38,028 bases of DNA, from NCBI GenBank assembly GCA_902792085.1, contig CADAYE010000023.1, forward strand, positions 1-38,028, in the 5' to 3' direction. The DNA is from an uncultured bacterium (GTDB lineage Bacteria; Cyanobacteriota; Vampirovibrionia; Gastranaerophilales; Gastranaerophilaceae). Below the pieces are notes generated by a model, which was not told where the DNA came from, did not search any database, and saw nothing but the letters and a program-made list of their open reading frames with translations. Within the stretch, counting starts at the first letter, position 1. Every line of letters starts with the position of its first letter. The translations under genes and the position numbers were made by a program. Shown piece after piece: positions 1 to 18,226 of the stretch.

Positions 1-480
1 GGCGGCATAAGACTGCTAACGCAGTAATATGTGTTTTTGCCTGTCGGCAAAAATCTCTTAGCGCGCCTAAGGACAACGGCGCGCGCTTACCCCTCACCCC
101 ACCCCTCTCCCCTTGGGAGAGGGAGCAGTTCTTGAAATTTCAATTTCATAGAAATGCGGGTGAGGGTTTCTATCCGACCTTTACGAAGTGCAGGTTGTGG
201 TTTGCTTGATTGCTCGCCATCGACAGCACTACGCATTTTGCTTTTTGTGGCTTTTTCCACAAGCAAAATGGCTTCGGCTTTGCCTCGCAATCAGCTTTGA
301 GGCACTTTTGCCATCAAAAGTGCCCCCTGTTCGGAGAACCTTGCGGAGCATATATATTTATATACCGATAATATTTTTTATGTAATTAATTGCTTGACCT
401 GTACAGCAATGACATGCTACTGTAAAATAGTATATAATTACTGAATTTCAAAATAAAAATAAATCAAGAAAGAACGGAGT
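1..480. other. Intergenic region rich in palindromic repeats, no gene seen
   Basis: No convincing reading frame is present; the two short open frames here cross repeat sequence and lack ribosome binding sites. The stretch holds a TTTTGCC/GGCAAAA hairpin near 37-54, a CCCTCACCC...GGGTGAGGG element at 91-166, a CATTTTGCTT/AAGCAAAATG hairpin at 234-270 and a perfect 10-bp stem (GGCACTTTTG, loop CCAT) at 301-324. The rest is AT-rich. It is the kind of repeat-filled gap seen again at 20.6-21.4 kb and 27.8-28.7 kb. Confidence 0.6.
91..166. repeat. CTCACCC-type palindromic repeat, intergenic copy
   Basis: The ends are CCCTCACCC and GGGTGAGGG, with an inner CCCTCTCCCC/GAGAGGG pair. The core GAGGGAGCAGTT recurs inside the radical SAM gene at 21.7 kb, and the ATGCGGGTGAGGG end recurs inside the laccase-domain gene at 26.6 kb. 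So this is one dispersed family with both intergenic and in-gene copies. Confidence 0.7.
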
Positions 481-15591: not shown

Positions 15592-16047
15592 ATGAAAAAA
15601 TCATTAAGAACATTGGCAGTTACTGCTTTATTATTGGGTGGATTAACATTTGGGTCTGCTGTCAAAGCGGCTGATTTTTCGGTTGCAATAGTTGATGTGC
15701 CGGTTGTTGTAAATGCTTCAGCACAAGTTCAGGCTTTGAAAAAAGAACAGCAGGCAAAGGCACAGGAAATTGTAAAATTTATCGAAAAAGCAAGAAAAGA
15801 TGTTGCTTCAATTTCTGATGCTAAGAAAAAACAGGCTGCAGAAGAAAAGTACAACAAAGAATTGCAGGCTAAGAAAGAAAAAATGGATACTGATTACGCT
15901 GCAAAATTGAAAGCAATTGATGAATCTATTTCTTCTCAAATTGCTGCAAAAGCAAAAGCAGATGGTTATGATGTTGTATTGAGCAAGGGTATTGTTCTTT
16001 ATGGCGGAAAAGATATAACTGCTGAAGTTGCTAAAATTATTAAATAA
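15592..16047 (+). CDS. OmpH/Skp-like periplasmic chaperone
   Basis: A 151-residue secreted protein: signal peptide 1-26 (cut near VKAA), then FSVAIVDVPVVVNASAQVQA, the short strand typical of OmpH, followed by a long Lys/Glu/Ala helical stretch (about 45-125) and a C-terminal strand DVVLSKGIVLYGGKDIT. That is the Skp/OmpH fold: tentacles that hold unfolded outer-membrane proteins as a trimer. A strong AAGGAGAG Shine-Dalgarno and a terminator 26 nt downstream show a single-gene unit. It suits a cell that also makes outer-membrane barrels such as the TpsB nearby. Confidence 0.87.
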   Translation: MKKSLRTLAVTALLLGGLTFGSAVKAADFSVAIVDVPVVVNASAQVQALKKEQQAKAQEIVKFIEKARKDVASISDAKKKQAAEEKYNKELQAKKEKMDTDYAAKLKAIDESISSQIAAKAKADGYDVVLSKGIVLYGGKDITAEVAKIIK

Positions 16048-16072
16048 TTCTACTTAATAATTTAACATTTTT

Positions 16073-16102
16073 AAAAGACCTTTCCTTTGCGGGAGGTCTT
16101 TT
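16073..16102 (+). terminator. Terminator of the OmpH-like gene
   Basis: AAAAGACC and GGTCTTTT pair, with additional TTTCC/GGGA pairing, and the stem ends in T residues just after the stop codon. Confidence 0.85.
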
Positions 16103-16231
16103 ATTACGGATTGTAAAGATATGTTAAAAGTATGTATGATTCTAATCTCCCAAATTATATTCATGCAAATTATTCTGTCGGGGAAAAATCCAAATAAAAT
16201 TTGCTATATGAAAAAAATGTATATAATATAC

Positions 16232-16269
16232 AAAAGCGTGAATTTTATGTATATAAAATTCACGCTTTT
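16232..16269. terminator. Perfect 17-bp hairpin, probable bidirectional terminator
   Basis: AAAAGCGTGAATTTTAT (16232-16248) pairs perfectly with 16253-16269 around a 4-nt GTAT loop, with A at one end and T at the other. It stands between the OmpH-like gene and the minus-strand hydrogenase operon and could stop read-through in both directions. A short open frame over it is not supported. Confidence 0.65.
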
Positions 16270-16278
16270 TAGTATTAA

Positions 16279-16450
16279 TAATATTTGGCAACTATATATT
16301 ATTTACCACAAAATTTTGGCAAAACGGATATCCCTAACGGGGAATCACCCACCCAAATTTCTAAATTTCACATTCTGTTCAATTTGAAATTGGGTGGGTG
16401 CTGATTTTAACTTATTTTTGTGGTAACTCCTATATAGTTACCTAATATTT
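16279..16450. mobile_element. MITE-like element with 8-bp target duplication
   Basis: The element itself is 16287-16442 (156 bp). Its ends are imperfect inverted repeats: GGCAACTATATA...TTACCACAAAA on the left and the complement of GGTAACTATATA...TTACCACAAAA on the right. Identical TAATATTT sequences flank it at 16279-16286 and 16443-16450. Inside, CACCCACCCAAATTTC pairs with GAAATTGGGTGGGTG. No reading frame for a transposase fits, so it would be moved in trans. It lies immediately after the hydA stop codon (16460, minus strand). Confidence 0.75.
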
Positions 16451-16459
16451 AATGTTTAA

Positions 16460-18226
16460 TTAAATATCTCTGTATGAACCGTTGTATTTGTTACGATAGG
16501 TTGTATGCAACAATTCGTGGGCTTTGTGTGAACCCGGATGTTCAAAATCCTGTTGATAAAGTTTTTGAATAGACGGATTCATATGTGATTTGCGGACAGG
16601 GAGTTCTGAGTCTTCTTTATAAAGTCCGCAAGCGCGTTTACCTTTGATTGAAGAATCATTGTGGCTGTTTGGCTGACCGCCGCCGTTGATACAACCGCCC
16701 GGGCAAGCCATAACTTCTAACATTTGGAAGTTTGCGCTGCCATCTTTGATTTCTTTAAGGGCTTTTTCTGCCTCAACCATTGTTGAAACTACACGAACAA
16801 CTACTTTTGTTCCTTTGATATCAAGTTCAACAGTTTTAGAACGATTGGAAGTTCCTCTAATTTCTTTTATATCAACTTCATTCAAAACTTCGCCTGTTGC
16901 GTATTCGTATGCCGTTCTGATTGCGGCTTCCGCTACACCGCCTGATGCCCCAAAGATTGTTCCTGCGCCTGAATATTCTCCAAACGGTGAATCAGGTGTT
17001 TCAGGTTCAATATTTTTAAAGTCAATTCCTGCACCCTTAATCATTGCACCGAGTTCTTTTGTTGTAAGAACTATATCTGTATCAGGTCTGTTATCTGTGT
17101 ATAACTGTTCGCGTTTTGCTTCGTACTTTTTAGCGGTACAAGGCATAATTGCAACAATCACAAGATTTTCTCTTGAAACATTGTGATATTTTGGCATTAA
17201 ATCAATCAATGTTGATGACATCATACTCATCGGCGATTTACAAGATGATAAATGATGCAGCATATCAGGATGTAATGTTTCCAAATATTTTACCCAAGCC
17301 GGACAGCAAGAGGTAAATATCGGCAAGTTTTGTCCTGATTTTAATCTTTCCAAAAATTCTGTTGCTTCTTCCGTGATAGTCAAGTCTGCGGAGAAGTTTG
17401 TATCAAATACATATTTGAAACCTAATCTTCTTAATGCAGCATTGATTTTTCCGATAGTATTTTCACCCGGCTCGAGTCCGAACATTTCGCCTAACGCTAC
17501 ACGAACTGACGGAGCCATCTGAACAACAACAGTTTTTTCAGGATTGTTAATTTCGTCCCAAACTTTGTCAACTTCGTTTTTAATAGTTAAGGCTCCTGTC
17601 GGACAAACTGCAACGCACTGACCGCAGTTGATGCAATCAACCTGACCGATGGGTCTGCCGTTTAGCGGTTGAACTTTTGTTTTAGAACCTCTGTTTGCAA
17701 AGCCTAAAACAGAATGTCCCTGAAATTCTGAGCATGCACGAACACAAGCACCGCAAAGAATACATTTATTCGGGTCGCGAACAAATGATGGGCTGGAATC
17801 ATCTATAGGTAAATATTCTTTTTCCGCTTTGTCAGGGAAACGAATATCTCTGATATTATATTCTTCTGCATATTTTTGAAGTTCGCAGTCACCTGATTTG
17901 TCACAGGTTAAGCATTTTCTGTCGTGATTTGCGAGAAGCAATTCAAGAACAGTTTTTCTGATACGGCGAACTTTTTCAGTATTCAAATATACTTTAATAT
18001 TTGCTTCCGGAGGCATTGTGCAAGATGAATTGATTATTTTTCTTCCGTTTGGATATTCTACTTCCACAACACACATTCTGCAGGCACCGAAAGATGTCAA
18101 ATCAGGTCTGTAACAGAATGTAGGAACATTCATTCCTGCTTTTCTGATAACTTCAAGCAAATTCGGTTCGTCCGTAAATTCAACTTCTTTGCCTTCTATT
18201 ATTAATGTTTTTTTATCTTCACTCAT
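16460..18226 (-). CDS. hydA: [FeFe]-hydrogenase catalytic subunit, trimeric HydABC type
   Basis: 588 residues. In order: an N-terminal [2Fe-2S] plant-ferredoxin domain (CYRPDLTSFGACRMCVVEVE and a later Cys), the His-Cys cluster (HDRKCLTCDKSGDC, about 100-115), a two-[4Fe-4S] ferredoxin domain (CILCGACVRACSE; CINCGQCVAVCPTGAL), and the H-cluster domain with TSCCPAWVKY (about 305), MPCTAKKYE (about 360) and EVMACPGGCINGGGQP (about 503). This is the group A3 layout, which with HydB and HydC couples H2 to both NADH and ferredoxin by electron bifurcation. It is the last gene of hydC-hydB-hydA, 15 nt after hydB. The maturases HydE/F/G are not in the window. Confidence 0.95.
   Translation of the reverse strand: MSEDKKTLIIEGKEVEFTDEPNLLEVIRKAGMNVPTFCYRPDLTSFGACRMCVVEVEYPNGRKIINSSCTMPPEANIKVYLNTEKVRRIRKTVLELLLANHDRKCLTCDKSGDCELQKYAEEYNIRDIRFPDKAEKEYLPIDDSSPSFVRDPNKCILCGACVRACSEFQGHSVLGFANRGSKTKVQPLNGRPIGQVDCINCGQCVAVCPTGALTIKNEVDKVWDEINNPEKTVVVQMAPSVRVALGEMFGLEPGENTIGKINAALRRLGFKYVFDTNFSADLTITEEATEFLERLKSGQNLPIFTSCCPAWVKYLETLHPDMLHHLSSCKSPMSMMSSTLIDLMPKYHNVSRENLVIVAIMPCTAKKYEAKREQLYTDNRPDTDIVLTTKELGAMIKGAGIDFKNIEPETPDSPFGEYSGAGTIFGASGGVAEAAIRTAYEYATGEVLNEVDIKEIRGTSNRSKTVELDIKGTKVVVRVVSTMVEAEKALKEIKDGSANFQMLEVMACPGGCINGGGQPNSHNDSSIKGKRACGLYKEDSELPVRKSHMNPSIQKLYQQDFEHPGSHKAHELLHTTYRNKYNGSYRDI

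Follow-up and report, generated by a model that had tools for sequence, protein, structure and literature searches.

A non-autonomous IS1595-family element with an apparently hybrid, palindromic interior beside hydA in a Gastranaerophilales genome

The window analysed here is a stretch of 38,028 nucleotides in which a short, strongly folded element lies directly beyond the 3' end of the gene for a group A [FeFe] hydrogenase, hydA (Table 1). The stop codon of hydA on the minus strand (16460-16462) is 9 bp away from the right copy of an 8-bp duplication that flanks the element, and the distance from the stop to the element itself is 17 bp with the duplication included. The initial annotation had described the element as MITE-like, adjoining the hydA stop and enclosed by two identical octamers, with imperfect inverted ends, an inner stem and no transposase gene, and we found all of these traits again. 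Read directly from the sequence, the ends are GGCAACTATATA and, as reverse complement, GGTAACTATATA, which form imperfect inverted repeats, while the inner stem consists of CACCCACCC at 16346-16354 and GGGTGGGTG at 16392-16400. The complete inverted-repeat arms extend over 45 nt with a complementarity of 78% and are larger than had been stated before. Together with a few flanking bases, the element folds with energies of −58.3 kcal/mol on the plus strand and −64.3 kcal/mol on the minus strand; the z-score of the fold is about −8.2, and none of 200 shuffled sequences folded equally well. Because the longest stop-free stretch inside the element spans 38 codons, it does not code for a transposase, and its length of 156 bp (182 bp for the family consensus) falls within the range of 70-300 bp used for MITEs without a transposase gene.

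Table 1. Features of the window in and around the element next to hydA, and further copies of its palindromic core.
Feature	Position	Strand	Basis or remark
hydA, [FeFe] hydrogenase group A	16460..18226	-	TIGR02512 above its cut-off
Terminator-like hairpin of hydA, 17 pairs, beyond the element	16232..16269	-	kept in relatives without the element
MITE, 156 bp	16287..16442	.	182-bp consensus minus 26 bp; alignment, target duplications
Left 8-bp target-site duplication TAATATTT	16279..16286	.	single copy at the equivalent site in G004 and G002
Right 8-bp target-site duplication TAATATTT	16443..16450	.	read from sequence
Left terminal inverted repeat GGCAACTATATATTATTTACCACAAAA	16287..16313	+	end-pattern match, 0 mismatches
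Right terminal inverted repeat GGTAACTATATAGGAGTTACCACAAAA	16416..16442	-	end-pattern match, 0 mismatches
Small hairpin CCCTAACGGGG, between left end and core	16332..16343	.	sequence, fold
Palindromic core, without hairpin a (CCCTCCC..GGGAGGG)	16346..16400	-	model R2, 50.5 bits, E 1.2e-11
Deletion junction, 26 bp missing compared with full-length copies	16391..16392	.	alignment to consensus
Stand-alone intergenic core copy	91..166	+	model R2, 39.3 bits, E 1.4e-8; IS1595 ends not seen in the sequence read
Weaker core copy, in frame within the PgeF gene, 26 codons	26576..26653		E 1.2e-4
Weaker core copy, in frame within the gene for a TatD-linked radical SAM protein, 45 codons	21628..21762		E 0.0024

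When 180 bases spanning the element were searched against the bacterium's own genome (G000; 1,924,484 bases in 39 contigs), 132 matches were obtained, which we grouped into about 40 copy sites (30 as L001-L030 and 10 as L031-L040); this number is approximate because several copies lie at contig ends of the assembly. The end pattern GGYAAYTATATAKKADTTACCACAAAA matched 62 times in the genome with up to three mismatches, and the reversed pattern used as a control did not match at all. The full-length form of the family is 182 bp long, and in the copy of the window 26 bp from the inner hairpin are missing. Two ends were recognised in 24 copies, eight of which were of full length (181-185 bp) and 16 carried internal deletions or duplications; at the remaining sites of the 40, a second recognisable end was absent from the sequence at hand. 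All 24 two-ended copies were flanked by 8-bp duplications, 18 of them identical and six agreeing in 7 of 8 bases. As a control, 552 mismatched pairs of left and right flanks were compared, of which 4 were identical and 18 showed one difference. The octamers duplicated at insertion are nearly pure A/T. The element is no chance structure, as it has about 40 copies in the genome and 8-bp duplications are far more frequent than among the mismatched flanks. A simple ORF scan placed none of the 24 copies inside an ORF of at least 80 amino acids, and no clear bias in gene position was apparent among them (4 convergent, 8 divergent and 12 tandem). For a genus that has been little studied, these copies document a burst of MITEs within a single genome, and the approximately 40 insertions are usable as markers. 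Three copies (L027, L028 and L033) are now perfect palindromes with arms of 20-21 bp, as would be expected if replication copies one hairpin arm from the other. Copy L030 (G000:C12:32952-33277) contains three tandem copies of its right half, with a short additional stretch where the repeats meet; it was omitted by hand from the duplication count for this tandem structure, and its outer flanks agree in 7 of 8 bases by eye.

The 3' region of hydA was found in 41 of the 46 genomes of the genus. The initial annotation had proposed to look for an empty target site in a relative, and such a site is indeed present in G064, G004 and G002, where the sequence reads through the insertion point and the element is absent; G004 and G002 contain one TAATATTT (AAATATTA on the coding strand) at this place. 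Four further sites out of ten joined were checked, and for each of them one or more relatives have the equivalent site uninterrupted, giving a total of five out of five. Judged by eye from its flanks, one copy (L004) apparently occupies the same place in G064 (L111) and G004 (L058). The shared L004 site and the empty hydA site together indicate that activity of the family preceded the split of these species and continued after it, and the insertion next to hydA would postdate the split from the closest relatives.

The end search, which had likewise been proposed together with a search for an insertion sequence with matching ends, also led to a partner, because two of the 62 end matches are the ends of a 4,882-bp transposon on another contig (C7). 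This C7 transposon (G000:C7:84124-89005, equivalent to L062:1625-6506) has diverged ends that face each other at 84124 (+) and 89005 (−), is flanked by the 8-bp duplication TATAATAA (8 of 8 bases identical) and codes for a transposase matched by PF12762 (DDE_Tnp_IS1595, E 6.9e-45) and by NF033547 (IS1595 family transposase, 205.7 bits at a cut-off of 75). The transposase is present in one copy in the genome. The cargo of the transposon comprises Fic, Schlafen/AlbA_2, type ISP C-terminal and short integrase-like ORFs; we noted that it includes fragments of a type ISP restriction gene and of an integrase and possibly represents defence or toxin cargo. The right end of the MITE is identical to that of the C7 transposon in 25 of 27 positions. 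Because the left end of the family consensus agrees with the two transposon ends in only 20 and 21 of 27 positions and the two elements have only about 26 bp in common, the MITE may not descend directly from the C7 transposon.

We searched a species collection with the C7 transposase and obtained 47 loci; close relatives of the protein occur in Candidatus Gastranaerophilales MAGs with 61-63% identity. A total of 18 IS1595-transposase loci was examined, namely 17 of the 47 and the genome's own copy with short flanks. An inverted end pair bounded by GG..CC with identical 8-bp flanks was present at 12 of these 18 loci, and the left end started exactly with GGTAACTATATA at seven of the 12; two Gastranaerophilales MAGs and several Flavobacteriia are among them. 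Such ends therefore characterise this branch of the IS1595 family. The MITE consensus gave only short, weak matches to the 47 loci (best E 0.05), so these loci showed no MITE with this interior. Among the 46 genus genomes, a PF12762 match occurs in five and MITE-type ends in 14, 12 of which are without a PF12762 match; this rarity of the transposase in the genus counts against the IS1595 reading.

Based on the approximately 40 dispersed copies, their 8-bp duplications, the empty sites and the matching ends together with an IS1595-family transposase in the same genome, we conclude that the element is almost certainly a non-autonomous member of the IS1595 family. The parent had initially been regarded as impossible to name; with the C7 transposon at hand, this question is settled in favour of an IS1595-type parent. 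The transposase of the C7 transposon, or of a lost sister, would have acted in trans by binding to the 26-27-bp ends, and insertion via 8-bp staggered cuts into A/T-rich intergenic DNA would have led to multiplication. The internal DNA would play no part in transposition and be free to vary, and the long hairpin would render the copies prone to internal deletion or duplication. The copy in the window may be regarded as one such deletion derivative, which would have entered the stretch that separates the stop codon of hydA from its terminator-like hairpin.

A comparable IS1595-family MITE is listed for Haloquadratum walsbyi, with ISHwa6 as partner, a length of 165 bp, 7 copies, IR 25 and DR 8 (PMC3852290 Table 4). 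Compared by description, both are short and share inverted ends of about 25 bp, an 8-bp duplication and an IS1595-family partner, but the Haloquadratum element belongs to another domain of life and has fewer copies, and the passages describing it mention no palindromic passenger (PMC3852290). Given this precedent, the element is ordinary in kind as an IS1595-family MITE, and what is unusual about it is the hybrid interior. IS1595-family transposons with passenger genes have similar GG..ACTATATA ends and 8-bp duplications, but the MITE is gene-free and has the ends alone in common with them. Nezha and other cyanobacterial MITEs, likened here by description, are likewise high-copy bacterial MITEs (PMC3733652, PMC10969869), and a literature search of open-licence papers returned no MITE report for Gastranaerophilales.

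The interior of the element belongs to a different repeat family, a point missed by the initial annotation. Read on the minus strand, the outer CACCCACCC/GGGTGGGTG stem of full-length copies encloses two hairpins, a (CCCTCCC..GGGAGGG) and b (AAATTTC..GAAATTT). A model derived from 16 such cores, stand-alone ones included, matched in 34 of the 46 genus genomes and 76 times in the bacterium's own genome, where 25 of the 32 matches listed lie in MITEs and seven outside. To avoid circularity, we built two further models from nine MITE cores only, R2 with structure and R3 from sequence alone, and applied them to 25 stand-alone loci. These consisted of 20 loci without MITE ends (7 from the own genome, 13 from relatives), picked from the matches listed and not at random, and five seen earlier. 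R2 recovered the core in all 25 loci given (E 3e-20 to 1e-6), and R3 in 23 of them at E <0.003, missing L227 and L238. The MITE interior is therefore homologous to a separate dispersed repeat family. Paired end-like sites around the core were found at none of the 25 loci: the only end at L229 comes from an adjoining MITE, and L239, L046 and L054 gave only end matches with 7 mismatches. Two exact patterns of the core were also searched in viral contigs, with 0 matches each.

The homology between MITE cores and stand-alone cores would also fit an interior that has always been part of an IS1595 element, the stand-alone palindromes being decayed MITEs without ends, and a degenerate end-like AGGTAATTATATAG was recognised by eye to the left of the core at L046 in G008. 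We consider this course of events unlikely, because the cores occur in many more genus genomes than the ends (34 vs. 14 of 46), end pairs are lacking at all 25 stand-alone loci examined, some stand-alone copies lie in frame within conserved genes with no traces of ends, and the diversity of stand-alone copies exceeds that of the MITE cores. Instead, the element looks like a hybrid of IS1595 ends around a REP/RPE-like core, and we lean towards a fusion of two non-autonomous repeat families, in which the palindrome within the IS1595 ends is spread by a DDE transposase. The wider distribution of the cores compared to the ends points to a capture of the palindrome by the IS1595 ends; thus, the interior would derive from separate dispersed palindromic repeats which were caught between two such ends and then carried along. 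This is the more interesting part of the element, since a hairpin repeat that has no evident transposase itself seems to be travelling inside a MITE. If true, the palindrome would have gained a second, unrelated dispersal route besides its stand-alone existence across the genus and its in-frame insertion in protein genes.

Because a terminator-like hairpin of hydA follows beyond the element, the hydA transcript most likely runs through it, and the element is probably carried as a folded passenger in the 3' UTR. It had initially been suggested that the element may now serve as the 3' structure of hydA; this finds no support, as hydA has a hairpin of its own that is present also in relatives without the element. 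A structured RNA acting as a regulatory or stabilising 3' UTR element of hydA and conserved for this function would agree with the strong fold, with the position of the element and with some core pairs in which both partners changed and the pairing was kept (6 cells, a value attained in 3 of 500 shuffles). We regard such an RNA as very improbable, since the family has about 40 copies beside differing genes, the hydA 3' regions of G064, G004 and G002 do without the element, and hydA retains its own terminator-like hairpin. The initial annotation had named a single-copy sequence conserved in distant relatives as the mark of an RNA; the many copies and empty sites are the opposite. An Rfam search of positions 16000-16800 returned 17 matches up to E 5, all under the gathering scores of their families, and the RNA reading was rejected because these are sub-threshold chance matches only and the orthologous hydA site is empty in close relatives. 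The covariation of the core is modest, with four pairs changed on both sides (reached by 43 of 500 shuffles), and is no proof of a functional RNA. Mobilisation of the MITE by another family that creates 8-bp duplications, such as the IS66, IS6 or ISL3 type, is very improbable: an 8-bp duplication by itself is not specific to one transposase family, but the MITE ends match those of IS1595-family transposons in its own genome and in other phyla.

Regarding the core family that we suppose to be captured in the IS1595-family MITE, the window itself contains one stand-alone and two weaker in-frame copies (Table 1). The profile match of the TatD-linked radical SAM protein is split at the 45-codon insert, and in G064 a core copy (L238) lies in frame in a PriA-like ORF, named by eye. 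By analogy, these in-frame copies in conserved protein genes resemble the palindromic elements of Rickettsia, for which the passages on them report copies in frame inside conserved protein genes (PMC3733652, PMC10969869). The core family shares with RPE and REP elements the nature of a hairpin repeat that is dispersed, a likeness of arrangement (PMC3733652, PMC10969869). A palindrome family is thus indicated throughout the genus, with members in frame in conserved genes as in Rickettsia.

In many stand-alone copies, hairpin b is preceded by GGGTAG. Y1_Tnp genes were detected in five of seven genomes searched, which returned ten loci. We scanned nine of these RAYT-like loci, leaving out L103, where a MITE abuts a fragment, and found mostly other GTAG hairpins; at L099, a palindrome resembling the core lies about 1.1 kb away from the gene. 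A RAYT was considered as mover of the core, and the loci scanned give it no clear support. The difference from REP/RAYT systems is evident on contig C22, where the Y1 (RAYT-like) gene is flanked by other GTAG hairpins and not by this core: at L096 (G000:C22:80099-80434), it lies between inverted GTAG-GGTAGACTTTAGTCTACC hairpins in a typical REP/RAYT arrangement. At L103 (G000:C36:1-302), the abutting MITE copy seemingly truncates the Y1_Tnp (RAYT-like) reading frame. Finally, an IS1595-type end pair was observed around a different palindromic interior (GTCATTCTGAGGGCTAAAGCCCTCAGAATC...) at L050 (G027:C62:5688-5850), which suggests that ends of this type enclose other dispersed repeats also.
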